From the NCBI GenBank assembly GCA_902500995.1, contig CABVSR010000020.1, forward strand, positions 1-64,000: 64,000 nucleotides of DNA, in the 5' to 3' direction. The notes below the pieces were generated by a model, which saw only the letters and a program-made list of their open reading frames with translations, ran no database searches and was not told the DNA's origin. The translations under genes and the position numbers were made by a program. Position 1 is the first letter of the stretch; each line of letters opens with the position of its first letter. Below, one piece after another: positions 1 to 24,421 of the stretch. Origin of the DNA: an uncultured Nitrospira sp. (GTDB lineage: Bacteria > Nitrospirota > Nitrospiria > Nitrospirales > Nitrospiraceae).

Positions 1-840
1 CATGTGTTCGTGCTGACGTTGGGCTTCAGTCGCCGTGGGTTCTATTACGCCTGTGTGGATGAGCGGCTCGCCCAGTTTCTCGAGTCCCATGAGCGGGCCT
101 TTGCCCATTTCGGGGGCCACACCCGCGAACATCTCTATGACCGGCCGCGGACGGTCTGTTATGCGGATGACACGGGGCGGCGGATCTGGAATCCCACGTT
201 CAAAGCGTTTGCCGACTACTGGGGCTTCGAGCCGCGCGTCTGTCGGCCCTATCGGGCGCAGACCAAGGGCAAGGTCGAATCGGGCGTCAAGTATGTGAAG
301 CGGAATTTTCTGCCCGGCCGGACGTTCATCGATCTCGTGGACTTCCAAGCCCAGCTGGATGAATGGAACGCGACCATCGCGGACTGCCGGCTCCACGGCA
401 CGACCCACGAACCACCCATTGCACGCTTTGAGCGAGAACGCGGGCAGCTGGTGCCGCTGGCGGGGCACCGCAGCTTCCAGCAGGAGGCCCGTGTCTCCCG
501 CATCGTCGCCGAGGACTATTTGGTCAGCTTGGCGACCAACCGCTACTCCGTGCCCTTCCGCCTCATCGGCCAGCGGGTCGAGGTACAGCGCCGGGGAGAC
601 ACCGTGCACATCTTCCATCGCGACCGCGAGGTGGCGACGCATCCCGTCTTATCCGGCACCCACCAATTCCGCATCCTGCCCGAGCACGGCCCCGGCGCCA
701 GTGCACGGACGGCCCGTCAACGCCGCTCGACCTGGCGTGACCCGGCGCGTTCCCCCAGCGCGCTGCCGGAGGTCGAAGTGCGGGATCTGGCGTGCTATGA
801 GGCGGTGTGCGGGAGTGTGCCCGTGGAGGTACGCCCATGA
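1..840 (+). CDS. istA: IS21 transposase IstA, 5'-truncated by window edge
   Basis: DDE-type transposase that would cut and join the IS ends together with IstB. The frame is open from base 1, so the N-terminal DNA-binding part and the first catalytic Asp are not visible. Within the 278 residues seen, LYD (D46) and the CRPYRAQTKGKVES block (E92) match the last two catalytic acids and the conserved IS21 core. A C-terminal Mu-type beta region follows (about 150-220). The stop codon overlaps the istB start as ATGA. Family assignment is firm. Confidence 0.9.
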   Translation, partial: HVFVLTLGFSRRGFYYACVDERLAQFLESHERAFAHFGGHTREHLYDRPRTVCYADDTGRRIWNPTFKAFADYWGFEPRVCRPYRAQTKGKVESGVKYVKRNFLPGRTFIDLVDFQAQLDEWNATIADCRLHGTTHEPPIARFERERGQLVPLAGHRSFQQEARVSRIVAEDYLVSLATNRYSVPFRLIGQRVEVQRRGDTVHIFHRDREVATHPVLSGTHQFRILPEHGPGASARTARQRRSTWRDPARSPSALPEVEVRDLACYEAVCGSVPVEVRP

Positions 841-6823: not shown

Positions 6824-8080
6824 TCAGCACTTGAAGCCCAAAAGCTGCTGCTGCCGAAAACCTGTGGCACTGGTGTTGAAGAGCGGGGTGCCGGGTTGGC
6901 GCATGACGAGTTCAATCGCCGCGGCACGGCGCTGGCGCTGCTTGCCGTTCTTCAGTGCCTCTTTAAGCGAATCGATCGTCATGGGATTCCCAAGCAGGTA
7001 GCGCGTGCCGTCTGTAAATTCCAGCCGGTGGGTGAACCACCATTTTTCGATCAATTGAGGATTGGGCCAGGGCAAGTCTTCGTCCGGATCCATGTCCACG
7101 TTCTCGTCTTCGGGATTCTCCGTCGGGCCGCCTTCGAAACCCTCCGGCTTATCGGTATCCAAGTCGTCATAGGCGAGATCGACTCCGGTAATAAACGTGA
7201 ATGATTCACCCGCCACCCGAGCCATAAGCGGACTCGCCATCTGTTGGATCAACCAGGGAATGTCTGCAGGATCGCCGATGACTCCAGCTGCTTGCACAGC
7301 GAGACGAAGTGTCTTAGGACTGCTCGCCAGGCTCTTAACCCACGCTTGCGCCTGGTCTATTGACATGCGTCTCAGCGCCATCGCGCTAGCCGTTTCACGC
7401 TCAGGATGTCCACTTTCAACCAGCCGCTGAAGCACTGGAATGGCAGCCGGCTCTCCAAGCAAGGCACCAGACCACCCGGCCCAATACCGATAGGCCAGAT
7501 CTTCCACGATTAGCTCAGCCTTGATGGCTGGAATCAGGTTGGTCCTCCCAAGTTCGCCCGTTGCTTTCAGCGCCCGAGCCTTCAAGGCAAGATCCGATGA
7601 AGAGAGCGCATCCTTCAAGGCTGCACCAGGATCTTTACGATGAACAGCGTAGGTAGCGAGACCAATTCTTCGCTGAACAGATGATTCAGCACTGAGTAGT
7701 CGCTGGGCCTGGGAAGCAACTTGCTCAAACGGGATCCAGCCCAGCGCCGAAATGAGCCCCGCGCTCAACTCCGGATTCTGTTGCACCACATCAAGCACCG
7801 CCTGGATACGCGCCTCGATCCCCGTCTCAAACGCCATCACCGAAGCAGCAAAGACTTCGCCTGGCTCTTCAGTTCCCAGCGCAGCCTTGCACAATTCCCA
7901 GCCAGCTTCACTCGCTACGCGCAGCCCATCAAGATGGGCCTCAACACGGTCATCCAACTTGGCCAGATCTTTCAACGTATAGTGCGGCTGCCTGGTGGCA
8001 TTTGAGCGAAGCAGCCACAGAAATGCCGCCTCTTCCCCATGTTGTGAGACAATGGACGAGATCACGCCGGAGAACATCAA
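6824..8080 (-). CDS. TIGR02270-family HEAT-like protein, T6SS-associated
   Basis: A 418-residue cytoplasmic protein matching the TIGR02270 family. The N-terminal signature is EEAAFLWLLR followed by LDDRVEAHLDGL. Residues about 120-290 are alanine/leucine-rich helical pairs of HEAT type, then an acidic linker (about 305-340) and DLPWPNPQLIEKWW. HEAT repeats usually bind protein partners. It is the last gene of the vgrG-DUF2169-PAAR module, so an adaptor or immunity-like role for that module is possible but unproven. Two decayed copies of its 3' end lie at 5968-6006 and 2980-3150. Confidence 0.75.
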   Translation of the reverse strand: MMFSGVISSIVSQHGEEAAFLWLLRSNATRQPHYTLKDLAKLDDRVEAHLDGLRVASEAGWELCKAALGTEEPGEVFAASVMAFETGIEARIQAVLDVVQQNPELSAGLISALGWIPFEQVASQAQRLLSAESSVQRRIGLATYAVHRKDPGAALKDALSSSDLALKARALKATGELGRTNLIPAIKAELIVEDLAYRYWAGWSGALLGEPAAIPVLQRLVESGHPERETASAMALRRMSIDQAQAWVKSLASSPKTLRLAVQAAGVIGDPADIPWLIQQMASPLMARVAGESFTFITGVDLAYDDLDTDKPEGFEGGPTENPEDENVDMDPDEDLPWPNPQLIEKWWFTHRLEFTDGTRYLLGNPMTIDSLKEALKNGKQRQRRAAAIELVMRQPGTPLFNTSATGFRQQQLLGFKC

Positions 8081-8169: not shown

Positions 8170-9105
8170 TTAGTTGGGACGAGGGACTTCGACCCACCTC
8201 ACCCCATCCTCTGTGTATGCAAGATCCTTTTGTCCCACTGACCAAAGCACACCATCATTTGCATCGAGATAAGCTGTACTTAGTTTGACGCTATCCCTGC
8301 GAAGTCCCAACTCAACGGGTGTCAACACATCGCCCTGTAATACAAAAACCCCATGGTAATTTGCGAGATATACTCTTCCATCAAACACGGCCATTCCCCA
8401 GAAATCTTCATCTGTTGTATCGTGGACGATGCTCTCCCACTGCCCTGCTCTACCACGCAGTAATATCCCTGCCATCCCGCCAACATAAACATTTCCATCA
8501 GGAAGACATCTGGCACAGGTCAAGGCTACATTTGTTGGGCTATCTTGCTGTGCCCAGGTCTTTCCATCATAAAACCAAATTTCACCCTGATACCCAACAG
8601 CATAAATGCCGCTCTCAGTTGTACCATCGATAGCATTGAAACCTATGGCTCTGTCCCTTTGCCCTCGCGGAGCGAACACCCCCTGGTCAATGGCTTGCCA
8701 GTTATTGGCTCCGACGCGCTTATAGACATGCCTTCCCATCCCAGCCACATACACATGCTGGCCAATTAGACGAATACACTTAAGATGCACCAACTCACTC
8801 GGACCTTCCTCCGAGACATCAACCTGCTCAGTTGCAGCCCCCGCCGCGCCTGGATTTGTAAATAGATTGATCTCCCCATTGATGCCCATACACAAGACTA
8901 ATCGTTCTGGTGTATCCATCTGACACAGTGACCCAACTGCGAACGCTAGAGAGCGATGAGCCCACTGACGTCCAAACCATCGGAACACCAATGCATGGTC
9001 ATCTTCAGTCTTAAATTCATCTGAAATGGCAGAAACATAAACATGGTCGCGCTTATGCACGACTACTCCCGTGAACGTATGCTCGTGCTGCACAGTCATC
9101 GCCAT
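8170..9105 (-). CDS. Beta-propeller-like protein, unknown function
   Basis: A 311-residue protein without signal peptide. It consists of about six or seven short beta-rich units of the form IYAVGYQGEIWFYDGKTW, VYVGGMAGILLRGRAGQW, VYLANYHGVFVLQGD, typical of a propeller. GC is visibly lower than in the tss genes. It follows the PAAR-like effector gene by 36 bp, a common place for an immunity gene; it could also be an accessory factor. An ATG two codons in is an alternative start. Confidence 0.6.
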   Translation of the reverse strand: MAMTVQHEHTFTGVVVHKRDHVYVSAISDEFKTEDDHALVFRWFGRQWAHRSLAFAVGSLCQMDTPERLVLCMGINGEINLFTNPGAAGAATEQVDVSEEGPSELVHLKCIRLIGQHVYVAGMGRHVYKRVGANNWQAIDQGVFAPRGQRDRAIGFNAIDGTTESGIYAVGYQGEIWFYDGKTWAQQDSPTNVALTCARCLPDGNVYVGGMAGILLRGRAGQWESIVHDTTDEDFWGMAVFDGRVYLANYHGVFVLQGDVLTPVELGLRRDSVKLSTAYLDANDGVLWSVGQKDLAYTEDGVRWVEVPRPN

Positions 9106-9141: not shown

Positions 9142-10155
9142 TTAACATGAAGGCGTTGATGTCAGTCTGTCTAAGGCCGCCTCACGCTGCTCAGCCTTAA
9201 GAGGCTGTTTCCTACTTGGGGTGTTGCACTTCTTCTCTGCCTCTTTTCCATAGAAGCTATCCAATTGGGCCTCAATACAGCCTTGGCTACAATTGCTGTC
9301 TGGATTTGCATCCTTATGCGATTGCAAAGCCATCTGCTTAGCATCCCCATAAGTGAGTGTCTTACCTATAAGCTGGTCTTCCCGAACTCCCCTAGTGCCA
9401 TGGGCAATACCGTGCTTACCGTGATATCTAGAACGATTCACACACATGCACGGCGCTCCGCTGTACAAGTTGGGAATGTTTTTGAAATCTGGCGCACCAT
9501 CTGTCATATGATCTTCGATTAGATGATCCCCGGTGTTGTCCGGACTGCAGCATTTCTCCTTGTCTTTCCCTTTTTGAACAAGAATGCACTCCATTGCTTT
9601 CTTACAATCCTCGGAGCAAATTTTATGTGTTCGGCTTCCTACCTGAACTGGTTTTGAATCAGCGCATGCCGTGTTCGCTTTTTCAGAGTCCGCTTTGCAT
9701 TCCGAAGGGTTACCAAAGGCTGTCGCATCTTGATGAGGAAGGGGGGGAGTCTGACCTGTCTCTGAGGAATGATTGTGGGTGGTGAGATCCAGATGCCTAA
9801 CTACATTCTCGCCCTCGAACTTGACGTCCATCGACCATGACTTGAAATAGACCTTCCCCATGTTCTTGTGGGTCACAACACCCTTCATTGGCGCGCAACC
9901 CGCTTCATCACCCATGCTCCTCTTAAAAAACGATTTATCCTTGAGCAGGACCTCTTTGCCGGAAATCTTGACGTTCTTGCTGCCATCCGTACAGTCGGAT
10001 GCCATACCGGTATTCGGATAGGGGATCGGGACACCAGGAGGGGTTGCTGGTGTTTGCGGCGGCGTCATACAGACATCCGGAAAAGCGCAGATGGTCTTTC
10101 CCTCTCCAGCTTTGCAGGAAATCTCGCGACCATTTGCATAAACCTGATTGGCCAT
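9142..10155 (-). CDS. PAAR-like (DUF4150) effector with GHH2-type C-terminus
   Basis: A 337-residue tip effector. The start at 10155 gives the canonical MANQVYANGRE opening of DUF4150 proteins. Residues 5-130 are the PAAR-like cone that sharpens the VgrG spike (TPPQTPATPPGVPIPYPNT, KISGKEVLLKDKS). Residues 200-305 form a Cys/His-rich domain: C202-C203, GDH at 209-211, YHGKHGIAH at 244-252 and further cysteines. This resembles the Tox-GHH2/HNH-endonuclease VII class, with GDH in place of the usual GHH. DNA cleavage in the target cell is the likely role. It is preceded by DUF2169 and ketosynthase-like genes that probably load it. Confidence 0.75.
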   Translation of the reverse strand: MANQVYANGREISCKAGEGKTICAFPDVCMTPPQTPATPPGVPIPYPNTGMASDCTDGSKNVKISGKEVLLKDKSFFKRSMGDEAGCAPMKGVVTHKNMGKVYFKSWSMDVKFEGENVVRHLDLTTHNHSSETGQTPPLPHQDATAFGNPSECKADSEKANTACADSKPVQVGSRTHKICSEDCKKAMECILVQKGKDKEKCCSPDNTGDHLIEDHMTDGAPDFKNIPNLYSGAPCMCVNRSRYHGKHGIAHGTRGVREDQLIGKTLTYGDAKQMALQSHKDANPDSNCSQGCIEAQLDSFYGKEAEKKCNTPSRKQPLKAEQREAALDRLTSTPSC

Positions 10156-10171: not shown

Positions 10172-11188
10172 CTAGTGGGCGACAACCATAGCCGCTCGCT
10201 CTCCGTCGTCATTTGAAAAATGGCAGATGGCAGTTCTACCTAATGCGTACCCTTTTTGATTTGCAGCTAGCACAGCACCGAGCACGCACGGCACACTTGC
10301 GGCCCCAACCTCCCCGATCGAATCAGCGAGGTGAAGAATTTCAAACCGGTCCTTCCGTTGGCGCAAGGTCCTCATCACACTCAAGGTGGCCTCCTTGAAG
10401 CCATATTGTTCCCCATTTACATCTGCAAAGCGGTAATCAATGTCTCCCATTGTCTTGCTAGCATCTGCGAGGGATGCCTTGAATGCTTCGACCATCCCAT
10501 CAGCCCTCAACGGAAGTTCAGATTCAACAATCGCCGTTTCCCTAGCAAAGCCGACTCCTAGACACCTCACGGCTTCGGCTTTTTCCTGCTTGAAATTCCC
10601 CATAAGGACCGCTGCCCCCGCTTCCCCTGGAATGAAGCCATTAGAGTTCTTGCTCGTAAGTAGTCGATTCCCGCTCTCATAGGCAGCCAATGTGCGCGAT
10701 AGCAAAAAGCTGTCTGTACCGGCAATCACGCAGTAGCGAACCCTCCCTTCCCTTAACAAGTTCGACGCTTCTTGCACTGCCATTACACCCGACACCCTCC
10801 CCTGCGCAATCGTTTTAGATGCCGGATGAAATCTAGCTCCTACTTCAACCTGAACTTCTGTCATCAGAAGATCCTCTATGCCTGGCAGCCTCCCCGGGCG
10901 GTGTGGTTCTGCAACACATAAGATAAGCTGAATCCGATCTGCTGAAATATTCTTAATGGGCAAGAGGCATTCCTTAATTGCCGGTACAACCAACTGCTCC
11001 AGCTTCTTGCGCCCTCGGTACGGCCTTGCCAGGAGAGCTTCGGACCCAATAATCCACTTGCCGCCGGCGTCAATAAACCTTGTTTCCCCGAAGCGATTCA
11101 TCCCACAGCGCATTGCTGCACAAGTGGATGCCCAATCTAGACCAATCCCTGTCACCATTCCTGATCCCAAAATCTGCACTGGATACAC
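10172..11188 (-). CDS. Ketosynthase (thiolase-fold)-like protein lacking catalytic residues
   Basis: A 338-residue protein with the two-halved thiolase fold of beta-ketoacyl synthases. GEAGAAV (188-194), an AGTDSF turn (156-161) and DSIGEVGAAS (289-298) align with conserved KAS elements. However, the nucleophile Cys position falls in TIAQGR (126-131), and the two active-site His positions fall in DVNGEQYG (256-263) and IGEVG, so none of the Cys-His-His triad remains. Location between DUF2169 and PAAR-DUF4150 genes, a recurrent T6SS arrangement, argues for a structural or loading role rather than fatty acid synthesis. Confidence 0.7.
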   Translation of the reverse strand: MYPVQILGSGMVTGIGLDWASTCAAMRCGMNRFGETRFIDAGGKWIIGSEALLARPYRGRKKLEQLVVPAIKECLLPIKNISADRIQLILCVAEPHRPGRLPGIEDLLMTEVQVEVGARFHPASKTIAQGRVSGVMAVQEASNLLREGRVRYCVIAGTDSFLLSRTLAAYESGNRLLTSKNSNGFIPGEAGAAVLMGNFKQEKAEAVRCLGVGFARETAIVESELPLRADGMVEAFKASLADASKTMGDIDYRFADVNGEQYGFKEATLSVMRTLRQRKDRFEILHLADSIGEVGAASVPCVLGAVLAANQKGYALGRTAICHFSNDDGERAAMVVAH

Positions 11189-11190
11189 TG

Positions 11191-12300
11191 CTACTGTTCC
11201 TTCTCCACAAGTCGAGCCGCCACAAGTTCACCCAATGAACTGTAGAAGACCTTCCCGGTTGCCTGTGCCCGGTACCAGGCCTTCGGCATGACGCCCGCCA
11301 CAACTTGTACGACATCGAACATATTTCGTTTAAGTGGATAGGATTGCCGCCAAGTCAGCATGAATCGTCGCTGGTCGGGTTCGATGATGATGGTATCGAT
11401 TACGCCCTGTGTTTCTTGCTTCTCACCCTTCCTGGGAAAAAAGACGATGGGCATTTCAACGGTCGGAATGGCAAATCGGGTGGTGCCTTCTGGCGTCAGA
11501 TTCGTCAACGTCACCGTTTCTCCACCTCGCAGATAGGGAACTTGTTGATCAAAGGGAGCAGCTTGATAGTAGGCCTCCTGGAAATCCGGTGGAAGAAAGG
11601 GAAAGATATTGTCGATCCAGTTCTGGTCGTAGGTCCCCGCCAGTTTATAGCGAGGTTCCCAATTGCGGCCGATTGCCCCAAACGCCATGGGCCGATACTC
11701 CCCGCCTGGCTTCTTTATAGAGCGCCCTTCTTCCTCCGTATTGGGCAACGGTTTCCCGTTAATGAGTTTGCCGCTCAAATAATGGTGAAAGCCACGACCA
11801 ACCGGATTGGCCAGTACGAACTTGTGGTTTTGCGGCTTCTCATGTGAGGTATCGGTCCCACCAAAGGCCTTGCCATAGGAGATCGGCATGACGGCGAAGA
11901 GTTCAGGTCTTGTCGATGAAACCCCAAACCAGCCCTTCTTCCAGATCCGGTTGCCGACCACCACAAAGGACTTGCGCCAGTCGCCCACTTGGAGGGACAC
12001 AGTCACGCGCTTCGCTGGCCGACCGTCCGAGGCATAGGCGCTGCCGCTCAGAAGGACATCACATTTGGGTTTCTTAGGGGCAAATTCGCTTTCGTAGATC
12101 GGCGCAGAAAATCCAGGTTCTCCTTCAAACGTGTCGGCCATGATGAGGGGAAACTGTTGTTCCGCGAGTGCTGGTTGTTGATCCGGTTTGTCAGGGAATC
12201 GGAAGGTACCTTTGACGACCACGACAAGAGATTCACGACCATCCGGGGCCATGCCCATCGTATACCCGGCCTGCATCTTGGTGGCGTTGAGCAGTTCCAT
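11191..12300 (-). CDS. DUF2169-domain T6SS effector adaptor
   Basis: A 369-residue protein of the DUF2169 family. Members next to vgrG genes (for example Atu3641 of Agrobacterium) help couple a specific effector to its VgrG. Visible family blocks include KATFRF-like VVKGTFRFPDK near 30-37, YGKAFGG, NPVGRGF and the C-terminal WYRAQATGKVFYSSL. No signal peptide. It ends two bases before the ketosynthase-like gene and starts 12 bp after DUF6484, so the module is tightly co-transcribed. The cognate cargo is most likely the PAAR-DUF4150 effector two genes on. Confidence 0.85.
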   Translation of the reverse strand: MELLNATKMQAGYTMGMAPDGRESLVVVVKGTFRFPDKPDQQPALAEQQFPLIMADTFEGEPGFSAPIYESEFAPKKPKCDVLLSGSAYASDGRPAKRVTVSLQVGDWRKSFVVVGNRIWKKGWFGVSSTRPELFAVMPISYGKAFGGTDTSHEKPQNHKFVLANPVGRGFHHYLSGKLINGKPLPNTEEEGRSIKKPGGEYRPMAFGAIGRNWEPRYKLAGTYDQNWIDNIFPFLPPDFQEAYYQAAPFDQQVPYLRGGETVTLTNLTPEGTTRFAIPTVEMPIVFFPRKGEKQETQGVIDTIIIEPDQRRFMLTWRQSYPLKRNMFDVVQVVAGVMPKAWYRAQATGKVFYSSLGELVAARLVEKEQ

Positions 12301-12312
12301 GGCAGATGGTGA

Positions 12313-12825
12313 CTAATTGATCTGGACAGATCCACCTTTGACACGGTTGACGCCGGAGGAACGGCTAAGCAGGTAGGCTCCTCGAATGAGAACTTTGCCC
12401 TCGCGTGTGAGTGTGATGCTCGCCTTGCCGCACTTCAAGACGATTTCTTTCTCGCCCTCGACAACGATCCGCTGTCCGTCTACCTTCGCTTCGATCGGCG
12501 CGCCTTGGATCTTCGGAGCCTGTCCATGCTCCCAGAGGAGACCGACGATAAAGGGTTCTTGTGTCTCTCCTGCCTCAAATACAACAAGGACCTCTCGTCC
12601 AACGTCTGTTTGGGTGATCGGCACAATGGATCGCGTCACCATTGGCTCCAACAGGGACAGGTTGGGCACCACAATATAGATGCGTCCCGTCACCTGGTCG
12701 AACTCTGAAATCACCCCCCGCAGAATTCCCATTGAGGACAGGCCTTGCTTACGTTGAGATTCCTTTGCCTCCTGAGATGTGGAAGCCATCAGTTCAAACA
12801 CTGCCTCCGTTCTCCCTGGTTTCAT
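12313..12825 (-). CDS. DUF6484-like VgrG-associated protein
   Basis: A 170-residue protein with an OB-fold-like beta-rich region (about 30-100: GVISEFDQVTGRIYIVVP, EVLVVFEAG, PFIVGLLWE) and a C-terminal stretch that resembles the last strands of a VgrG spike (EIVLKCGKASITLTREGKV). This fits DUF6484 proteins found beside vgrG/DUF2169. The ATG at 12825 has AGGAGGGG upstream; a second ATG 12 codons in is less well placed. It may cap or extend the VgrG tip, but its function is not established. Confidence 0.65.
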   Translation of the reverse strand: MKPGRTEAVFELMASTSQEAKESQRKQGLSSMGILRGVISEFDQVTGRIYIVVPNLSLLEPMVTRSIVPITQTDVGREVLVVFEAGETQEPFIVGLLWEHGQAPKIQGAPIEAKVDGQRIVVEGEKEIVLKCGKASITLTREGKVLIRGAYLLSRSSGVNRVKGGSVQIN

Positions 12826-12838
12826 TTCCCTGCCCCTC

Positions 12839-15091
12839 CTAGTTCTGTAAAATCTTTTTACCTTTCATGACAATATCGCCGGAGGCCGTTACTGAAATCT
12901 TCTTGCCCTCGATCACGATGTCGCCATTCTTTTTCATCTGGATGCGGGCGCTGCCAGTCTGAATGGTGATTTCATCACCCGCATCCAGCAACATCTTCTT
13001 GCCAGCCTTCACCGTGACGTTTTTCCCAGCCGTCCCGGACATGTTATCGCCCGCCTCGGAACTGATATTTTTGCCGGCCTTCGCCGACATATCCTGGCCC
13101 GCATCCATCGCTATGTTCTTCCCCGCCTTCTCTGAAATATTGCTCGCGGCGTCGACAGACTTGTTGGCGCCCACCTTTTCGCTGCTGTTCCCACCAACGT
13201 TGACCGATTTGACTGCACCGATTTCTTCGGCCTTCGCCGCTCCAATGGTCTCATTCATCGCGCCCCCGACCGTAACCTGATACGCGCCACCGATGCTCAG
13301 TGCGCGAGCAAGGGCTATGGTATGGGCCGAGGCCATCCCAATGGTGATGGCTTCTGCGCCGCTGATCGTTTCGGTGTGATTACCACCCACGGAGAGGGTC
13401 TTATTGGCCACGATGGATTCCGTATGATTTGCGCCCACACTGATGGTCTTATTGTTCCCAATCGTTTCGCTCTGATCCACTCCGACCTTCTTCGTCCGAT
13501 TATTTCCGACGCTCAGCGATTCATCGTGTCCGACCGACTGGCTCTTGTCGTTTTCGATGACGATGTTCCAGTCTTTTTGACCATGCAGGTAAATCTCTTC
13601 GCCGCCCTTCTTATCCTCGAAACGCAATTCATTGGAGCCCGCGCCTCCTTTGGAGCTGTTGGACTTGATGGTGCTCTTCGTTTGTTCACCGGGCAAAGGG
13701 TAGGGCGGCATCTGCTCCGCGTTGTAGACGCGGCCTGTGATGATCGGCCAATCGGGATTGCCTTCAATAAATTCCACAATGACTTCTTGACCGATTCGTG
13801 GCAGAAACATGGCGCCCCATTGCTTGCCTGCCCAGTTTTGAGAAATCCGAGTCCAGCAGGAACTGAACTCGTCATATTTCCCCTCCCGATCCCAATGGAA
13901 CTGGACCTTCACTCGACCATAATTGTCCGTCCAGATTTCTTCGCCCGCCTTTCCCACCACGACCGCTGTCTGCACGCCTTGGATCACCGGCTTCGGCGTC
14001 ACCTGCGGCGGCCGGAACGGAACCTTGTGGGGAATACAGGTGAAGGAGTTGGTATAGGCCGATTCGTCCTTCCCTATCGTGGTCGTCGTATAGGTCCCGC
14101 CGACCGTGGCAGTGTGATGCAGACTCGTCAGCACATAGGCCTGGTTCATGTCCTTACGCACATAGTCTTTCAGATCGAAGCGATAGCCGGACGTAAACGC
14201 CCGGCAGGAACTGGTCCCACTGGCCACAAAATATTGGGCTTCCTCTTCCTCCATGCGGAGCTTGGCGATGGCCTCGCCTTCTTTCTTCTTCGTGTATTCT
14301 CCGGGGAAGTCGTAGATTTCAAGCTTGCTGTTCCCGCCCACTTCAATCGTGGTTTTCATTTCCGCATCGAGACTCGTACTGGGGGTCTCGAAATTATAGT
14401 CCGTGACGGCATACTTGCCCGGCCTCAGAGTCTGCTCCCATTGAAAGCTCGTGATGACATCTTCCGCCAGCGCACCGCTGCCCTGTGGATCCCATTTGGC
14501 GTCCTGCTGCTCCGGGCAGGGCTGATGCGCCGAGGGATCGTCGGCAATGACCAATGTGTGTTTGTCCTTTTCATGCTCAAAGAAATACAACAGGCCGTAC
14601 TGTTCCATCAGGCGCGACACGAAATTGAAATCCGTTTCCCGATACTGAACGCAGTAGTCGCGCGGTTCGAAGCTGCCTTGCAACTGCAGCTTATAATCCG
14701 TAAATCCTAGATCTTTAAACACTTGCTCAATAATGGCGGGAATGGTTTTCTTCTGGAAGATTCGACAATCGGACGTCCGCGTGAGGAACCAGGTCCAGGG
14801 CACCATGGTCGCCCGATAGTTGGCAAGCCCCCGGTCACTGCCGGTCTGACTAAAACGGCTGATAAAGCCGTTGAAGTACCGTTTTTTCTCGGAACCGAGT
14901 GTGACGCGAAGCGTGACACGTTTGCCGATGATGTCCTCAAATTTGATGTCGGGATCATGCGAGAGCAGGTCCAGATCAAAATTCGAGAGACGCGAGACGC
15001 CCTCCTGGCCGGAGAAGCCTCTCAAGAGGAGAACATCTTTTCCCAGCGGCGTCTCGATCCCGATCAGCCGGTTTTCTTGTGTATGTGGCAT
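12839..15091 (-). CDS. tssI: T6SS spike protein VgrG (TssI)
   Basis: A 750-residue VgrG, the trimeric spike carried on the Hcp tube. Residues 1 to about 340 match the gp27-like base, about 370-470 the gp5-like OB domain (GRVKVQFHWDREGKYDE, WGAMFLPRIGQEVIVEF, PIITGRVYNAEQMPPY). From about 520 onward comes an unusually regular run of short SVGxNxT/ETIGxN-type repeats, shifting to AGKNxxxxAG repeats near the end, which should build a long beta-helical needle. There is no separate catalytic domain. It heads the effector module that follows on the same strand. Confidence 0.95.
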   Translation of the reverse strand: MPHTQENRLIGIETPLGKDVLLLRGFSGQEGVSRLSNFDLDLLSHDPDIKFEDIIGKRVTLRVTLGSEKKRYFNGFISRFSQTGSDRGLANYRATMVPWTWFLTRTSDCRIFQKKTIPAIIEQVFKDLGFTDYKLQLQGSFEPRDYCVQYRETDFNFVSRLMEQYGLLYFFEHEKDKHTLVIADDPSAHQPCPEQQDAKWDPQGSGALAEDVITSFQWEQTLRPGKYAVTDYNFETPSTSLDAEMKTTIEVGGNSKLEIYDFPGEYTKKKEGEAIAKLRMEEEEAQYFVASGTSSCRAFTSGYRFDLKDYVRKDMNQAYVLTSLHHTATVGGTYTTTTIGKDESAYTNSFTCIPHKVPFRPPQVTPKPVIQGVQTAVVVGKAGEEIWTDNYGRVKVQFHWDREGKYDEFSSCWTRISQNWAGKQWGAMFLPRIGQEVIVEFIEGNPDWPIITGRVYNAEQMPPYPLPGEQTKSTIKSNSSKGGAGSNELRFEDKKGGEEIYLHGQKDWNIVIENDKSQSVGHDESLSVGNNRTKKVGVDQSETIGNNKTISVGANHTESIVANKTLSVGGNHTETISGAEAITIGMASAHTIALARALSIGGAYQVTVGGAMNETIGAAKAEEIGAVKSVNVGGNSSEKVGANKSVDAASNISEKAGKNIAMDAGQDMSAKAGKNISSEAGDNMSGTAGKNVTVKAGKKMLLDAGDEITIQTGSARIQMKKNGDIVIEGKKISVTASGDIVMKGKKILQN

Positions 15092-15127: not shown

Positions 15128-17839
15128 TTATGCCACGGCATAGCGGAACGCGCCACCCGGTTCAACTGAGATATGAACCTTGTTGACCGATTCCCCTGCC
15201 GCCATGCGCGCGAGAAATTCCGTCGAGAGCTCGGGCAACAAGGTGCGGGTCAGAATGTGATCCACATTCCGCGCGCCGCTTTCCACCTCGGTGCAACGGT
15301 CGGCAATCGCCGTGACGAGCGCTTCGTCGTAGGACATCGCCGCGCGGTGGTTGTCTTTGATCCGGCGCATGATCCGACTGAGCTGCAATCCGATGATGCG
15401 CCGCATGATGTCGGGAGAAATCGGAAAGAACGGGACGACGATGAGTCGACCAAGAAATGCCGGTTTGAAATACTTCAACAGGTCCGGCCTGATGGCATCG
15501 GCCAATGCCTCCGGTTCAGGTCTGGTTTCCGGATCGGCACAGAGTTTCATCACGGTATCCGTGCCGGCGTTGGAGGTCATGATGATCACGGTGTTCTTGA
15601 AATCGATGTCACGCCCCTCACCGTCTTTCATCATGCCCTTGTCAAACACCTGGTAAAAAATGTCCTGCACACCGGGATGGGCTTTCTCCATCTCATCCAG
15701 CAGGATGACGCTGTAGGGTCGCCGGCGCACCGCTTCCGTCAAGACCCCGCCTTCGCCATACCCGACATAGCCAGGCGGTGACCCCATGAGCAAAGAGACC
15801 TTGTGCTCTTCCTTGAACTCAGACATGTTGAGGGTGGTGATGTTTTGATCGCTGCCGAACAACAGCTCCGCGAGCGCCAGTCCTGTTTCGGTCTTACCCA
15901 CGCCGCTCGGTCCGACGAACATGAAGACGCCGATCGGCCGGCGAGGGTCCTCCAACTTGGCTCGCGCGGTTCGTAAGCGCTGGCTGAGCGCATCCAGGGC
16001 ATGGGTTTGTCCCACCACGCGCTTTTCCAAATGTTCCTTGAGACTCAACACCGTGTTGATCTCGTCTTTGACCATCCGTCCGATTGGAATACCAGTCCAG
16101 GCTGAAATCACCTGGGCAATGGCCTGCCCGTCCACAGAGGGCTGGAGCAATGGGTTCTCCCCCTGAAGTGCGGTTAATTCCTTTTTCAATCGCGCCAGAT
16201 CAGATTGCAGCGTCTCGACTTCCTGCGGAGTCAGAGGGACAGGAGGCTTGTCCGCTGGCTTGTCAGGAGCATTGCCGGTTGTTGCCTTCTCCGGCATCTG
16301 CTGCGGCGGCGCCGCTTGCTGCTCCAGCTTCTGGCGGATCCCCGCAATTTCACCGACCAGTTTCTTTTCCTGTTCCCACCGGACCTTGAGTTCAGCTTGG
16401 CGCTTCTCTTCAGCCGCTTTCTCCCGGCCCAATTCAGCAACACGTTCCCGATGGTTGCCCCCTGTGATGTCTTCCCGTTCCAGGATGTCGATTTCCGTAT
16501 CGATGAGTGAGATTCGCCGGCGTGCATCTTCCAAGGCGGGAGGTTCCGCGACCTGCCCGAGCGCCACTCTGGCGCAGGCTGTATCCAGGACGCTCACGGC
16601 TTTATCCGGCAGCTGCCGGCCTGAAATATAGCGATGGGAGAGCCTCACCGCAGCCTCGATCGCCTCATCCAACAGCCTCACTTTATGGTGCTGTTCCAGG
16701 GTTCCGGCCAATCCCCGCATCATATTGATGGCGGTGGCCTCCGTCGGTTCTTCCACCTTCACCACCTGAAACCGCCTGGTCAGCGCAGGATCCTTTTCGA
16801 AGTATTTTTTATATTCGGCCCAGGTGGTCGCAGCGATGGTCCGCAGTTCGCCCCGGGCCAGCGCGGGCTTGAGGATATTGGCTGCATCGCCCTGCCCCGC
16901 CGCGCCCCCGGCGCCAATCAACGTATGGGCCTCGTCGATAAAGGTGATGATCGGCTGCGGGGACGCCTTGACTTCGTTGATCACCGACTTGAGCCGGCTT
17001 TCGAATTCCCCCTTCACCCCTGCTCCTGCCTGTAACAACGCGAGGTCGAGCACCCGCACCGTCACGTTCTGCAATGGAGGCGGTACGTCGCCGGTGACGA
17101 TTCTCAGCGCCAACCCTTCCACGACGGCGGTTTTTCCCACTCCGGCCTCCCCGGTGAGAATGGGATTGTTCTGCCTGCGTCTGGTCAGAATATCGATGAC
17201 CTGCCTGATCTCCGCATCACGCCCCAAGACCGGATCGACCTGCCCTTGTTTGGCCCTCGCCGTCAGATCGATGGTGAACTGGTCAATCGCCGGGGTTTTG
17301 GAGGCATGAGGGGCTCCGCCCGCCGCCGGCGTTTCGACCCCGCCTGTCTGAACGTCTTCCTGATCTTCCACTGATCCCGACACGATCTTCGGCAGGTGAG
17401 CGTGCAAGTCCTCAGCCGAGATCTTTTGCAACTCAGGAGACATCTCGCGCATCATGCGGGCAAAATCGTCTTCAGCGAGCAGGGCCAGCATCACATGGCC
17501 GGATCGCACGCGATTCACTCCGTATTCAATGGAGGCCAGCGACCAGGCTTCATTGATCAGGCGCGGAACCCGGGGAGCCAGCGTCGGGGTCCTCGCGTTG
17601 CCGGTCTTGAATCGATCGAGCGTACGGGTGATGTCTCTGGCCAATCGCGATTGGTCGATGCCATAGTGACGGCAAATCTTGTGAGCATCCGTATTCGACA
17701 TTTCCAAGAGCTTGGTTAAGAGATGTTCGATGTCCACGTCGTAATGAGTGCGACTGAGACACAACCCTGCGGCCCCTTCCAATGCGCGGCGACAGGTATC
17801 ATCGAGCTTCCCGATCAGTCCCTTGAGATTGATGTTCAT
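15128..17839 (-). CDS. tssH: T6SS sheath-disassembly ATPase ClpV (TssH)
   Basis: A 903-residue AAA+ unfoldase that recycles contracted TssBC sheath. An N-terminal Clp repeat domain covers about 1-150. The first ATPase module has Walker A GEAGVGKT at 230-237 and IITFIDEAH at 297-305; the second has GPSGVGKT at 643-650 and ILLDEMEKAHP. Between them is a long coiled-coil middle domain (about 435-560) with a Pro-rich insertion. Length matches ClpV rather than ClpB by the distinct N-domain and context. It sits 22 bp after tssG. Confidence 0.95.
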   Translation of the reverse strand: MNINLKGLIGKLDDTCRRALEGAAGLCLSRTHYDVDIEHLLTKLLEMSNTDAHKICRHYGIDQSRLARDITRTLDRFKTGNARTPTLAPRVPRLINEAWSLASIEYGVNRVRSGHVMLALLAEDDFARMMREMSPELQKISAEDLHAHLPKIVSGSVEDQEDVQTGGVETPAAGGAPHASKTPAIDQFTIDLTARAKQGQVDPVLGRDAEIRQVIDILTRRRQNNPILTGEAGVGKTAVVEGLALRIVTGDVPPPLQNVTVRVLDLALLQAGAGVKGEFESRLKSVINEVKASPQPIITFIDEAHTLIGAGGAAGQGDAANILKPALARGELRTIAATTWAEYKKYFEKDPALTRRFQVVKVEEPTEATAINMMRGLAGTLEQHHKVRLLDEAIEAAVRLSHRYISGRQLPDKAVSVLDTACARVALGQVAEPPALEDARRRISLIDTEIDILEREDITGGNHRERVAELGREKAAEEKRQAELKVRWEQEKKLVGEIAGIRQKLEQQAAPPQQMPEKATTGNAPDKPADKPPVPLTPQEVETLQSDLARLKKELTALQGENPLLQPSVDGQAIAQVISAWTGIPIGRMVKDEINTVLSLKEHLEKRVVGQTHALDALSQRLRTARAKLEDPRRPIGVFMFVGPSGVGKTETGLALAELLFGSDQNITTLNMSEFKEEHKVSLLMGSPPGYVGYGEGGVLTEAVRRRPYSVILLDEMEKAHPGVQDIFYQVFDKGMMKDGEGRDIDFKNTVIIMTSNAGTDTVMKLCADPETRPEPEALADAIRPDLLKYFKPAFLGRLIVVPFFPISPDIMRRIIGLQLSRIMRRIKDNHRAAMSYDEALVTAIADRCTEVESGARNVDHILTRTLLPELSTEFLARMAAGESVNKVHISVEPGGAFRYAVA

Positions 17840-17861: not shown

Positions 17862-18926
17862 TTACGCCCTACCGGCTCTGGCCATCATGGTGGTGCCGGA
17901 GAAACGCACCTCGTCTGCATGGTGATCAAACTCTTTGGTCTTCAACCACGTCGTCCAGCCGAGCCGTGGAACATAGCTCTCCGTCAAACGAAGTCTCGTG
18001 GGCGGTACTTCGTCGGCTCGCAAACGCAGCTGGACATCGAAATCCAACTCGGGCCCGACAAACAATTTGGTTAACTGCACGAGGGTCGGATAGGCCCTGC
18101 CGGACGGCAGCAGCCGGTTGAACTCTTCGAAGGCCAGCGGGCCCAACTCGACCTTACAGGCCGCCTGCTGATCCCAAATCTGGGTTCCGGCCAGAGAGGA
18201 CTGGCCCAAAAGATTGTTGCGTCCCGTCACGCCGATGGTTGTCCAATCTGCTTGTTCCAAAGGAAGCCAGGCTCCGATAAATTGGTTCACGCGCACCGGG
18301 ACCTGGAAGTAGTCTGTCAGACAGCGCTCCAGCGCTTCCGCTGACCGCGGACGTTGTCCCAGCAAACCGACATATCGCAGAACCGATCGATCATCGATGG
18401 TCAATCGCTCGCGCAGTCCCGTTGTGCCCAGACCCGCGACAGCAAACAGACAGCGAGCGAACCGATCATCGCTCCCCTTCAAGAGCCATTGCTCAAACCC
18501 CACCGTGCAATGGTGTTTTTCCCAGGCTCGAAAAAACAGGGAGATCATGCGATGGTTGAAGACATCGAAAAAATCACGCAGCGTCTGGTCCTTGGCTTGC
18601 AGCCGCTCCAGCATGAGTTCGGTGTAATAGCGGGGAAGGACACCTTGGGGACCGGTGAGCCCCATAAACGCCACGGTCATTTCAGCCGGCCGTCTCTCGT
18701 CGCGGGCCTGATTGATCTGATGAATGGCGCTCGGGGGGAAGGCAAGGGATTGATGGGCACGGAAGCGAACAACTTCCTTCGAAGGGATGGCGCTCTCGCC
18801 GACCGGTTGCCGATCCGGATAGACGCGCGCCAGCAGCCGGACCGCTTGAAAGAAATCGAAGCGAAAGCCCCGCTGCGTGAGGTCCTCTTTTAGATCAGGA
18901 TCTGTTCTCCTGCTCTGGGTGGCCAT
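17862..18926 (-). CDS. tssG: T6SS baseplate protein TssG
   Basis: A 354-residue wedge component of the T6SS baseplate. Characteristic blocks are FDFFQAVRLLARVYPD near the N-terminus, the GLTGPQGVLPRYYTELM motif, the FFDVFNHRMISLFFRAW motif, and a GRNNLLGQSSLAGTQIWDQQ region. It overlaps the end of tssF by 37 bp, so the two are translated together, as expected since TssF and TssG form a complex with TssE and TssK. Confidence 0.95.
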   Translation of the reverse strand: MATQSRRTDPDLKEDLTQRGFRFDFFQAVRLLARVYPDRQPVGESAIPSKEVVRFRAHQSLAFPPSAIHQINQARDERRPAEMTVAFMGLTGPQGVLPRYYTELMLERLQAKDQTLRDFFDVFNHRMISLFFRAWEKHHCTVGFEQWLLKGSDDRFARCLFAVAGLGTTGLRERLTIDDRSVLRYVGLLGQRPRSAEALERCLTDYFQVPVRVNQFIGAWLPLEQADWTTIGVTGRNNLLGQSSLAGTQIWDQQAACKVELGPLAFEEFNRLLPSGRAYPTLVQLTKLFVGPELDFDVQLRLRADEVPPTRLRLTESYVPRLGWTTWLKTKEFDHHADEVRFSGTTMMARAGRA

Positions 18927-20701
18927 TGTTTGAGCGGCCTTTCTCGTTGTTGGGTGCGGGCGACTAACTGGGTAAACGAGTTGAGCGAGGCATAGAGACC
19001 AAAAAACTTCTCCAACACACTCGCGAACAGATAGACGCTGCTCCCCACATATTTGTTCTCATCAAACTCCAGGGTCACTTCCATTCCGCGGCAGAACCCG
19101 TTCCAAGCCAGCGATGTCGGCCGGCGCGTCACCTGGCGAGAGGATACAGCCGTGATACCCTCGATTTGCTGATGAACCACGCTGGAATCCGAGAAATCAT
19201 AGAGCCGCAGGATTTCCTGCAAGGCTTGCGGATTCCCTTCAGTTAAGGAGAGGTAGTTCAATGACAGATGGGAAATCAGGCGCCATTGAGTTTCGCCGCC
19301 CAGCGGCGGCTGTATCGGCTCTGTCGGTTTCACGAGTGCTCGAATGCGCGCCACTGGCGCGGCTTTTTCGAGCTCAAAATCGCCCCGAATATCGTCCACC
19401 GCCATCCGTCTCGTGAGGCCACGGTTCGTACAGGTCGTGGAGACCATGAGTGTGTCCCCGGCCGGCAGAGTGGGATCCATGTCAAGATCGACCAGCGAGA
19501 GATACACCTCGGAGCCTGCATCGCCCTTCCGGTCTGACGACCGGCGGCTCTGGTACCAAAAGGCGCTCTGCTCGCGGTCCAGCCGCGTGTGTTTGAGGGA
19601 ATAGATCGGCTGCACTGGCCTCACCGTCTGCTTATCGCCGGACAACAGAGACACGGCATCAATGGAATAAATCTCGTTTGCCAGGGGCCGTCTCACTTCA
19701 GGGATGACCCGGTACTCGTGCTGTGTCTGGTCCAGGCGGATCGGTTCCGCCGTCTGCGTAAACAGGTTCACTACCGGCGCGCACCCCAACCGAAACGCAT
19801 CCGTGGTGGGCATGTAATCCGGGCGGGGGGGCTGATCGAGGACGATCTCAATTTCCACCTTGCTGCCCCCGGCCTTCAACACCTGTTGCAAGTGGGCAAT
19901 CTCTATGAACAGAAACTTCTGCGGGAACGTGAAATACTCGTGCAAGAGCCTGTAGCCCAGCAGCGCCTGCGACGGGTAAGGAAGCAGGCCTTCGTCCATG
20001 CCGAATCCCACCGGACGCAGGGAACCAGAGGGCAGCAGGACCGGTTTCTCTCCCGGCTTTCCCCCACCCGCCCGACAACGCACTTCATGCGTATGGTTCA
20101 GCAGCAGTTCGTACAGCGAATAGACGAGCGGAGCCTCGCCGTTGAGGTAGAACCGCAACTGGTCGACTTGGAGCTCTTTGAAGGTGAGCCCGCCCTGCGC
20201 GTGAAGTTCCAACTTGATGACCGCTGCCGGTTTTCCCCCCGGCAGGGCCCGCTCAGCCGGTTGCACTTTGACGGAGGCCAGCGTGATCGGCCAGAGGGTG
20301 GTGGAATAGCAGGTCCGAAATCGACATTGCGTGCCGTCGATCGGTCGGGAATAGAGTTGCGTCCCCACGGGCATGACGTACCCGCTCGTCAGTTTTCCCT
20401 GCTCCGGATCAAGGACGAACTCGACGACCGACATGGAGGGAATGGGAGCCAGGTAATGGGGATACAGCATTCCGAGCAAGGCATCGGTCACCTCGGGGAA
20501 TTCATCATCGATCTTGAGGTGAACCCTCGCGGCAAGGAACGCGAAGGCCTGGATCAACCGCTCAACATGAGGGTCCTCGCACTTATTGGGCTCCAGCAGG
20601 AGACGGCCGGCGACCTTGGGATAGGCCTGGGCGAATTCCTGCCCTAACTGCCGGAGGACTGAGAGTTCACGCTCGTAATATTCGAGCAGCGTCTCTTGCA
20701 C
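18890..20701 (-). CDS. tssF: T6SS baseplate protein TssF
   Basis: A 603-residue baseplate protein. The opening LLEYYERELSVLRQLGQEFA and FAFLAARVHLKIDDEFPEVTDALLGMLYPHYLAPIPSM are signature TssF sequence. The start is GTG at 20701, sharing one base with the TAG stop of tssE. TssF is the largest baseplate wedge subunit, making contacts to the VgrG hub. Length is normal for the family. Confidence 0.95.
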   Translation of the reverse strand: MQETLLEYYERELSVLRQLGQEFAQAYPKVAGRLLLEPNKCEDPHVERLIQAFAFLAARVHLKIDDEFPEVTDALLGMLYPHYLAPIPSMSVVEFVLDPEQGKLTSGYVMPVGTQLYSRPIDGTQCRFRTCYSTTLWPITLASVKVQPAERALPGGKPAAVIKLELHAQGGLTFKELQVDQLRFYLNGEAPLVYSLYELLLNHTHEVRCRAGGGKPGEKPVLLPSGSLRPVGFGMDEGLLPYPSQALLGYRLLHEYFTFPQKFLFIEIAHLQQVLKAGGSKVEIEIVLDQPPRPDYMPTTDAFRLGCAPVVNLFTQTAEPIRLDQTQHEYRVIPEVRRPLANEIYSIDAVSLLSGDKQTVRPVQPIYSLKHTRLDREQSAFWYQSRRSSDRKGDAGSEVYLSLVDLDMDPTLPAGDTLMVSTTCTNRGLTRRMAVDDIRGDFELEKAAPVARIRALVKPTEPIQPPLGGETQWRLISHLSLNYLSLTEGNPQALQEILRLYDFSDSSVVHQQIEGITAVSSRQVTRRPTSLAWNGFCRGMEVTLEFDENKYVGSSVYLFASVLEKFFGLYASLNSFTQLVARTQQRERPLKQWPPRAGEQILI

Positions 20702-21540
20702 TAGGCTTCTCCTCGCACGGAGTAAGATGACGTCCCCAGTTGGAGGGCTGCGTCGAAGCTCACCGGTTCCGGTGTCGGAGCCAGTCGCAGCAGGGCCTCA
20801 ATTCGAAAATGAAGCGCCACATCGAACTTGTTGGGCGCTTCCAGCGTGACCCGCACTGATTTCAGCCGTGGCTCGAACTTGGCCAAGGCCTCCTCCACGG
20901 ATCGCCGCATAATCTTGCGATGCTCGGGATTCAAGAGGCTATAACTGGTGAAATCCGGCAAACCGAACATCAACAGGGAGCGATTGACCTCGTCATATTC
21001 CGCAGGGGCCCCTTCCAGGAGTTCACGTCTGGTGTTCAGTAGGGCTTCTATATCCCGGGAAATCGATTTCTTCAGCTCGCGGAGATTCGTTGATGAAGGC
21101 ACAGGCCGTCGCATCCTGTGCAGTTCGTCGGCAAAGATCTCATCCAGCAACATGCGATTCAGCAGCGCCACATGAGAGGTTTTCCGGCTATCTTCCATAA
21201 GTCGGGCCGTCTCAGCTGAAAGCCGGATTCCTTCGAATCTCTTTCGTTCATAGAGAAGCGGTCCGCGTATGATGCGGTTGAGGCCTTCGGTCATGGCGAG
21301 CAGGAGATCATTGGTTACGGATCCAGACCCCTCACGGTCCACAAGTTCTCGCTCCTCCGGTCGAAGTTGCTCCCTCAAAAACCCTGTCACGGAACCCTGA
21401 GGGCTCCTCAGCCGCCCTGCCAGTTTCGCCGGATCCTTCAGATCCAGCGTGTCCAGATAGGGATCCCCAGCCTGCGGATCGTCATCGAGCAGGCGGTCCA
21501 AGACCGAGGCCACTACTCCGCTGTTTTCGGAGGCATTCAC
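20701..21540 (-). CDS. tssE: T6SS baseplate protein TssE, with N-terminal extension
   Basis: A gp25-like baseplate initiator that starts sheath polymerisation. The gp25 region is C-terminal: LKKSISRDIEALLNTRRELL followed by LLMFGLPDFTSYSLLNPEHRK and LRIEALLRL-like closing strands (about 155-265). The first 140 residues are extra compared with the usual 150-180-residue TssE; they are helical and contain IIRGPLLYERKRFEGIRLS. The extension could add a contact to TssF/TssG or the membrane complex. It is in frame with no sign of a false start. Confidence 0.85.
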   Translation of the reverse strand: MNASENSGVVASVLDRLLDDDPQAGDPYLDTLDLKDPAKLAGRLRSPQGSVTGFLREQLRPEERELVDREGSGSVTNDLLLAMTEGLNRIIRGPLLYERKRFEGIRLSAETARLMEDSRKTSHVALLNRMLLDEIFADELHRMRRPVPSSTNLRELKKSISRDIEALLNTRRELLEGAPAEYDEVNRSLLMFGLPDFTSYSLLNPEHRKIMRRSVEEALAKFEPRLKSVRVTLEAPNKFDVALHFRIEALLRLAPTPEPVSFDAALQLGTSSYSVRGEA

Positions 21541-21597: not shown

Positions 21598-22053
21598 CTA
21601 CTTCTTCACGCCCTTCCGCAGATCGTACCCGGCCTTTGACGTTCCCCACTCCCACATTGCTGCGCGATATCGTAAGGCAATCGTCTCTGTAGGCCTGGCC
21701 TCTGCGCTATGAAACCCGACGGATACGTTACTCACAATGACGTCATCTAAGGTCACCTTGCACATGACATCCTTACCCGAAATCAGTGTAATTTCCGCCT
21801 TGGGGATTTGTTCTTTTACCGCACAAGCCTTGGCGAGCGAGGGACTTGACGCATCCATTTCCTTCACGATCACGAGGTCGGCAAAGGTCGTGATATTGCC
21901 GGACAACCGGTCGCCTTCTTCCCATTCGCCGGCTTGATTCACCCCATAGGACATCGACTGAAAGACGATCTGGTCTTTGAACTTATCCGTCGTCGCCTTG
22001 CCTTTGATATCACCTAACTTTAAAAACGCATTCTCCTGCCTCACCTCTGCCAT
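21598..22053 (-). CDS. hcp: T6SS tube protein Hcp (TssD)
   Basis: A 151-residue Hcp that forms the hexameric-ring inner tube and can carry small effectors in its lumen. DKFKDQIVFQSMSYGVNQ and the C-terminal KAGYDLRKGVKK are typical of the compact Hcp subfamily. A very strong ribosome-binding site (AAGGAGGAGATC) precedes the ATG at 22053, consistent with high expression. It has its own upstream regulatory region with a sigma-54-like promoter, separate from tssBC. Confidence 0.93.
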   Translation of the reverse strand: MAEVRQENAFLKLGDIKGKATTDKFKDQIVFQSMSYGVNQAGEWEEGDRLSGNITTFADLVIVKEMDASSPSLAKACAVKEQIPKAEITLISGKDVMCKVTLDDVIVSNVSVGFHSAEARPTETIALRYRAAMWEWGTSKAGYDLRKGVKK

Positions 22054-22368: not shown

Positions 22369-23862
22369 CTACCGCTTCGCCGGTGGCGGCAGCTCAGCGA
22401 CCAACCGCAGCGAGACTGTGAGCTCATCCAGTTGGAAGTGAGGCTTCAGGAAAGCGATAGCCTTATAGACCCCCGGCTTCCCAGCTACTTCGGCGACTTC
22501 CACTCGTGCTTCCTTCAAGGGAAACTTCGCTTTAATTTCCTGTCCGGCATCTTCGGTGCTGACCACATATTTGCTGATCCAGCGATTCAGGAAATCCTCA
22601 CAATCTTTTCGCGTCATGAAGCTGCCGATTTTGTCCCGCATAATCGACTTCAGATAATGGGCGAAGCGCGACATGGCCAGCAGATACTGTAGTTGCGTGG
22701 AGAGACGCGCATTGGCGTTGGCCGAGTCGGTGTCGTATTTCTTTGCCTTTTGGCAAGATTGCGCCCCGAAAAATGCCGCAAAGTCCGTTCCCTTGCAGTG
22801 CACGAGGGGAATAAACCCGAGATCCGACAACTCCTTTTCGCGACGATCGGTAATGGCGATTTCTGTCGGACATTTGAGCGCGATTTCTCCTTCATCGGTG
22901 CGGAACGTATGGGTCGGCAGGCCATCGACGCGCCCGCCTCCCTCAACCCCGCGGATGGCTGCGGTCCACCCATACTTTGCAAACGCATCCGTGAGCCGGG
23001 CCCCCATCGCGTAAGCGGCATTTCCCCAGAGATACTTGCCGTGATCCGTACCATCCACGTCTTCTTTGAAATTAAACGCCTCAACCGGCACCGTCTCCGG
23101 GCCATAAGGCAGGCGCATCAAGACATGAGGCAACGTGAGCCCCACATAACGTGAATCTTCCGACTCACGAAAGGACTTCCACTTGGCGTAATCCGGCGTT
23201 TCAAATTTCTTAGCCAGATCTCGGGGGTTAGGAAGGTCGGTCATGGTTTCAAGCCCGAGCAGACCTGGCGCAGCCGCTGAAATGAACGGCGCATGGGCTG
23301 CGGCCGCCACATTCGACACCTTTTCCAGCAATGCCAAATCCTGAGGATGTCGCCCGAATTCGAAGTCTCCGATCAAGGCGCCATAAGGCGCTCCGCCGAA
23401 GGTTCCATATTCCTCTTCATAGACTTTCTTGAACAAGGCGCTCTGGTCGAATTCAACGGCCTTCTCGAGATCCTTCCGTAGTTCGTCCTTGCTGATATTC
23501 AACACACGAATCTTCAGCATGGTGCTGGTTTCGCTCTGCATGACGAAATAGTGCAGCCCGCGCCAAGCCCCCTCCAGCTTTTGGAACTCCGGCGAATGCA
23601 TAATGGCATTGAGTTGGGCGGATAAGGCCCTGTCGATGTCCGCTATCCGCGCATTGATCGTCGCCTCGAGATCTTTGGAGATTCGGAGGGTACCCTTCAT
23701 CACCTCTTCCACGAGGGTGGCAATCTGCCGGCGCGACTGATCCCGCTCCCAATCGTCTTTCCCGATGCGGGTCTCACGGATAATTTGATCAAGAACCCCG
23801 GTTTCCTCCGTTCCCGCCACCGCCGCGCCCTGAGGCTGCGCTTGTTTCGCTTCTTCCGCCAT
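22369..23862 (-). CDS. tssC: T6SS contractile sheath large subunit TssC
   Basis: A 497-residue VipB-type sheath protein. Typical blocks are LEGAWRGLHYFV near the start, GALIGDFEFGRHPQDLALL, the FLMRLPYG-like VLMRLPYGPETVPVEAFNF, and SRFAHYLKSIMRDKIGSFM near the C-terminus. A strong GGAGGGG precedes the ATG. With TssB it assembles the sheath whose contraction drives Hcp/VgrG into the target; TssH later dismantles it. Confidence 0.96.
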   Translation of the reverse strand: MAEEAKQAQPQGAAVAGTEETGVLDQIIRETRIGKDDWERDQSRRQIATLVEEVMKGTLRISKDLEATINARIADIDRALSAQLNAIMHSPEFQKLEGAWRGLHYFVMQSETSTMLKIRVLNISKDELRKDLEKAVEFDQSALFKKVYEEEYGTFGGAPYGALIGDFEFGRHPQDLALLEKVSNVAAAAHAPFISAAAPGLLGLETMTDLPNPRDLAKKFETPDYAKWKSFRESEDSRYVGLTLPHVLMRLPYGPETVPVEAFNFKEDVDGTDHGKYLWGNAAYAMGARLTDAFAKYGWTAAIRGVEGGGRVDGLPTHTFRTDEGEIALKCPTEIAITDRREKELSDLGFIPLVHCKGTDFAAFFGAQSCQKAKKYDTDSANANARLSTQLQYLLAMSRFAHYLKSIMRDKIGSFMTRKDCEDFLNRWISKYVVSTEDAGQEIKAKFPLKEARVEVAEVAGKPGVYKAIAFLKPHFQLDELTVSLRLVAELPPPAKR

Positions 23863-24398: not shown

Positions 24399-24421
24399 GA
24401 GCATCCTCCATCGATAATTGA

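Follow-up and report, generated by a model that had tools for sequence, protein, structure and literature searches.

A ketosynthase-fold pseudoenzyme, probably TvpD, in a class II T6SS spike-tip loading module of a Nitrospiraceae bacterium

DUF2169 loci of synteny type A are defined by a downstream 'thiolase-like' gene, and the hydrophobic PIPY domain is chaperoned by DUF2169 (Sachar et al., 2025; PMC11883445). The P. aeruginosa protein PA0098 (PRK06147) has been named TvpD and described as a co-chaperone restricted to class II (Monlezun et al., 2026, EMBO J; PMC13373197). The assembly of PA0096, PA0097, PA0098 and the PAAR domain of Tse7 presented in that work is an AlphaFold model (ipTM 0.753) rather than a structure, and in it the PAAR domain is surrounded by a groove made up of PA0097 and PA0098. 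This model is also the published form of the TvpC-TvpA-TvpD-PIPY pre-complex. The same paper (PMC13373197) cites bioinformatic work of 2020 in which PRK06147 was proposed to be an adaptor. The words catalytic, thiolase and ketoacyl are absent from the 2026 TvpD paper, and the loss of the catalytic triad is thus not discussed there.

Three other proteins bear on this family. Insertion into P. mirabilis PMI0754 abolishes killing and Dienes line formation; only the gene together with the rest of the operon rescued the mutant, so that polarity is possible, and acylation by PMI0754 was suggested (Alteri et al., 2013; PMC3764213). The pseudo-ketoacyl synthase TsmK was described from the T6SS of Acinetobacter in 2023 (PMC10564176). 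A structural survey of the same year noted a thiolase-like fold in VP1399 and found it enigmatic how modification of fatty acids or polyketides relates to the T6SS (PMC10734457); VP1399 has since been proposed as TvpD. The databases still label the PRK06147 family '3-oxoacyl-ACP synthase'.

The window analysed here is a 64,000-nucleotide stretch of DNA from a Nitrospiraceae bacterium. Its minus strand carries, in this order, genes for VgrG (TssI; 12839–15091, 750 residues, TIGR03361, E = 5e-206), a short DUF6484 protein of the TvpC type that is an OB-fold mimic of VgrG (12313–12825, 170 residues, PF20093, E = 1.1e-10), a DUF2169 protein of the TvpA type (11191–12300, 369 residues, PF09937, E = 4.6e-95), a TvpD-type protein (10172–11188, 338 residues) and a PIPY/DUF4150 effector (9142–10155, PF13665, E = 6e-36). 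The DUF2169 domain spans residues 20–318 and is the only domain of its protein, which has no pentapeptide-repeat extension. The TvpD-type gene begins with GTG two bases beyond the end of the DUF2169 gene. The effector, which bears a VPIPYPNTG motif, likely starts at an inner ATG at 10155, 16 bases past the stop codon of the TvpD-type gene, rather than at the ATG at 10212 chosen by open reading frame prediction. A sequence-only reading had placed the TvpD-type protein between a DUF2169 adaptor and a PAAR effector. Both neighbours do adjoin it, and the effector is of the PIPY/DUF4150, Tox-PAAR-like kind and not a canonical PAAR protein.

The C-terminal domain of the effector is related to that of the Tse7-type effector of P. 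aeruginosa PA7 (locus L100), with which it clusters by single linkage; the cluster unites the C-terminus with 69 others. Tse7-like toxins dominate the module, and a few loci, for example L052, have unrelated C-termini. The effector gene is followed by a gene for a 311-residue protein (8170–9105, minus strand) without a Pfam family, relatives of which occupy the same place downstream of the effector in 69 of 80 homologous loci, including that of P. aeruginosa PA7. This is probably the cognate immunity protein, and its relatives an immunity protein family for Tse7-type effectors. The module further includes a TIGR02270 HEAT-repeat protein of the PA0101 type (6824–8080, minus strand, E = 6e-122).

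Upstream of VgrG, the same strand encodes ClpV (TssH; 15128–17839, TIGR03345, 1309.6 bits), TssG (17862–18926, TIGR03347), TssF (18890–20701, TIGR03359), TssE (20701–21540, TIGR03357), an Hcp (TssD)-like protein (21598–22053), TssC (22369–23862, TIGR03355), TssB (23865–24404, TIGR03358) and TssA (24422–25540, TIGR03363). The Hcp-like protein scores 47.7 bits against TIGR03344, below the cut-off of 58.9, and the system may therefore use a divergent Hcp. An IS21-family transposase (4–840, plus strand) lies close to the window edge. The effector module is present in a minority of same-genus genomes, and gain or loss through mobile elements is possible.

The 338-residue protein matches NF004798 (PRK06147) of NCBIfam with 379.6 bits (E = 1.4e-113), above the cut-off of 342. 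All 68 aligned family members match this model too. Its match to the Pfam ketoacyl-synt family (E = 4e-4) falls slightly below the cut-off. Among solved structures, sequence comparison returned weak ketosynthase matches only; a search of viral contigs found no relatives and a PADLOC run gave no match. The locus has the features of Tvp class II, or DUF2169 synteny type A, namely a DUF2169 protein without the pentapeptide extension and a short DUF6484 protein. The gene itself is placed as expected of TvpD, between the DUF2169 and DUF4150/PIPY genes, with the DUF6484 gene downstream of vgrG. PA0098 belongs to the same NCBIfam family and has the same order of VgrG, DUF6484, DUF2169, TvpD and PIPY effector, in P. 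aeruginosa rather than in a Nitrospiraceae bacterium; the protein of the P. aeruginosa PA7 locus is 48% identical to the window protein.

The protein has a ketosynthase fold. A profile of the family aligned over residues 1–318 with a profile of FabF-type enzymes from its own and related genomes (98.8% probability, E = 5.7e-17). An AlphaFold2 model built from a 68-sequence alignment has a pLDDT of 94.5 and a pTM of 0.93, and superimposes on E. coli FabF (KAS II, 1kas) over 331 residues at 3.0 Å with a Z score of 36.5. The window protein is about 70 residues shorter than FabF, having lost them from several loops. Foldseek and VIA-align matched the model to FabF and to type II PKS ketosynthases or chain length factors. 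Two chain length factors, 1tqy_B and 6smp_B, were among the best structural matches, with a Z gap to FabF that is within the range of a tie. In type II PKS, the chain length factor has no nucleophile and acts as the protein partner of an active ketosynthase. TvpD resembles it in having the fold without the nucleophile; the effector module of the window showed no gene for an active ketosynthase.

The catalytic residues are missing. In two alignments, the columns of FabF Cys163, His303, His340 and Lys335 hold R131, D256, E293 and A288, an equivalence resting on profile alignment and matching secondary structure. In the AlphaFold model R131 lies at the N-terminus of helix 130–146, D256 right behind strand 252–255, and E293 in the loop ahead of helix 295–312. 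In each of the 24 FabF-type controls, these columns contain the Cys, the two His and the Lys. The family was surveyed through 102 sequences, which contain three duplicate pairs, each representing one locus. Position 131 is Arg in 59 of them, His in 31, Lys in 4, Gln in 3, Ser in 3, and Cys and Gly in one each; position 256 is Asp in 96, and position 293 is Glu in 86 and Asp in 13. None of the 102 has His at 256 or 293, and L058, alone in having Cys at 131, carries D256 and E293. Eighty sequences were found by patterns covering residues 181–189 and 259–266, and conservation within these segments is partly selected; positions 131, 256, 286–290 and 293 lie outside the patterns, and the triad is also missing in members found through profile search alone. 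Because the absence is family-wide and the controls are intact, the loss of the triad is ancient and fixed, and what took its place is not random but charged and conserved. With the catalytic residues gone, TvpD-type proteins presumably have no enzyme activity. The sequence-only reading, of a protein that keeps the landmarks of the thiolase fold and has none of the Cys-His-His residues, is thus borne out: the fold by NF004798 membership, the profile-profile match, the model confidence and the similarity to FabF, the missing residues by the alignments with FabF-type enzymes. The survey of T6SS-linked homologues that it asked for is given by the family sequences and loci, and the loss of the triad is family-wide.

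That reading would have been overturned by an intact Cys-His pair at shifted positions, and no conserved pair of this kind was found in the sequence columns of the 102 family members. The only conserved Cys and His that lie close to each other by the former active site are C290 (92 of 102) and H286 (98 of 102), and the window protein has Ser at position 290, which breaks the pair. C322-H323, also considered, sit side by side on a strand, and Cys occurs at 322 in just 42 of 102.

With conserved polar residues surrounding the former active site (D256, E260, E266, H286 and C290), a new ligand or activity is conceivable. A pseudoenzyme with a kept or rebuilt pocket, in which R/H131, D256, E260, E266, H286, C/S290 and E293 bind a ligand or peptide or support a new activity, overlaps with a co-chaperone role, as the peptide might be a segment of PIPY or DUF2169. 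These positions are among the most conserved of the family (E266 in 101 of 102 sequences, E260 and H286 in 98 each, D256 in 96, C290 in 92), part of this conservation being selected by the search patterns. The Ser290 of the window protein shows that the Cys-His pair is not universal, and the conserved charges may merely stabilise an emptied active site; we regard a rebuilt pocket as unlikely. A narrower version, in which the active site has been converted into a charged site of R/H131, D256, E260, E266, H286 and E293 that works in tip loading, for example by gripping a PIPY or DUF2169 segment or a small ligand, is similarly doubtful, and fractionally more so. If true, the former substrate pocket would have been put to a new functional use as the charged site, and TvpD would not be a passive scaffold.

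Gene context links the family to the spike tip. The survey covered 80 named genome loci, drawn from Nitrospirota, Acidobacteria, Planctomycetota, KSB1, Desulfobacterota-related MAGs, Rhodothermales and the alpha-, beta- and gammaproteobacteria. DUF2169 accompanies the TvpD-type gene in all 80 and PIPY in 78, the contig ending just after the TvpD-type gene in the other two. DUF6484 is found in 71 of the 80 and VgrG in 67. Divergent members from related genomes, some only 21–27% identical, also lie beside VgrG, DUF2169 and PIPY; in the divergent clusters L138, L140 and L141 the order is DUF2169-PIPY-TvpD rather than DUF2169-TvpD-PIPY. No TvpD member outside a T6SS module was seen among the surveyed loci and related genomes. 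Within the bacterium's own class, DUF2169 is present in 21 of 21 genomes carrying a TvpD-type protein. Of the 20 genomes in which DUF6484 is strongly matched as a stand-alone protein, 19 have a TvpD-type protein, the exception being a 72% complete genome with a short contig. Three genomes of the class that have DUF2169 in open reading frames of 936–1146 residues are without a TvpD-type protein. In this class, therefore, TvpD-type proteins and class II modules co-occur nearly one to one.

One same-genus genome (G028) carries an 834-residue open reading frame (L131:3850-6351, minus strand) in which TvpD (residues 27–365) is fused to a TIGR02270-type HEAT protein (residues 421–808), within a VgrG-DUF6484-PIPY-DUF2169 cluster. 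This natural fusion suggests that TvpD also works together with the HEAT protein. Together with the precedent of TsmK, it raises the possibility that the window protein is a structural subunit on the HEAT protein or on the T6SS baseplate or membrane complex instead of at the PIPY tip. The conserved adjacency is, however, to DUF2169 and PIPY, and HEAT genes occur in 59 of the 80 loci at varying positions, with truncated contigs contributing to the absences; such a subunit is decidedly unlikely. TsmK is comparable by description, as a ketosynthase fold without the full catalytic set that has been co-opted by the T6SS, and differs from TvpD in its membrane complex role, in keeping one catalytic His and in its gene context.

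The retained fold and the database name would suit an enzyme that still transfers acyl groups or acts like a ketosynthase and so modifies the effector or the immunity protein, for instance by the acylation suggested for PMI0754 (PMC3764213). Such an enzyme is highly improbable given the missing Cys, Lys and both His in the window protein and across the family and a score of 17.5 bits against the FabF (KAS II) model TIGR03150, whose cut-off is 493.75. PMI0754 (PefC), annotated as a 3-oxoacyl-ACP synthase (PMC3764213), resembles the window protein in gene context, lying between a DUF2169 gene and a DUF4150 effector gene in an hcp-vgrG effector operon. The consistent R/H-D-E in place of C-H-H in the TvpD family argues against the acyl-transfer role suggested for it.

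The 338-residue protein is, with good confidence, a ketosynthase-fold pseudoenzyme that serves as TvpD in a spike-tip loading module of Tvp class II (DUF2169 synteny type A). A non-catalytic co-chaperone is the best explanation because the protein agrees with TvpD in every sequence and gene-order feature that was checked. TvpD and the DUF2169 protein (TvpA) would cradle the hydrophobic PIPY/DUF4150 effector tip, which would first sit on a trimer of the short DUF6484 protein (TvpC) and then be passed to VgrG for baseplate assembly. Contact of TvpD with PIPY and TvpA in a pre-complex, and a need for TvpD in delivery, are both predicted from published modelling and genetics on homologues. The earlier suggestion of a scaffold or chaperone for effector loading thus stands on the features of the TvpD family, and its novelty does not: the view that such a role was not established for ketosynthases is out of date in light of the TvpD co-chaperone model (PMC13373197) and of TsmK (PMC10564176).

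The TvpD/PRK06147 family and its loading role had already been proposed, and TsmK was an earlier T6SS example of a dead ketosynthase fold. The additions made here are modest: the R/H-D-E replacement of the triad, which we did not find stated for the whole TvpD family in the open-access literature examined, the near one-to-one co-occurrence with class II modules, and the TvpD-HEAT fusion. The analysis documents a complete class II module in Nitrospiraceae, and the residues that replace the triad are targets for mutagenesis. The family-wide loss of the catalytic set supports re-annotation of this '3-oxoacyl-ACP synthase' as the structural T6SS subunit TvpD. TvpD would then join TsmK as a second example in which a T6SS apparently employs a ketosynthase fold for something other than catalysis.
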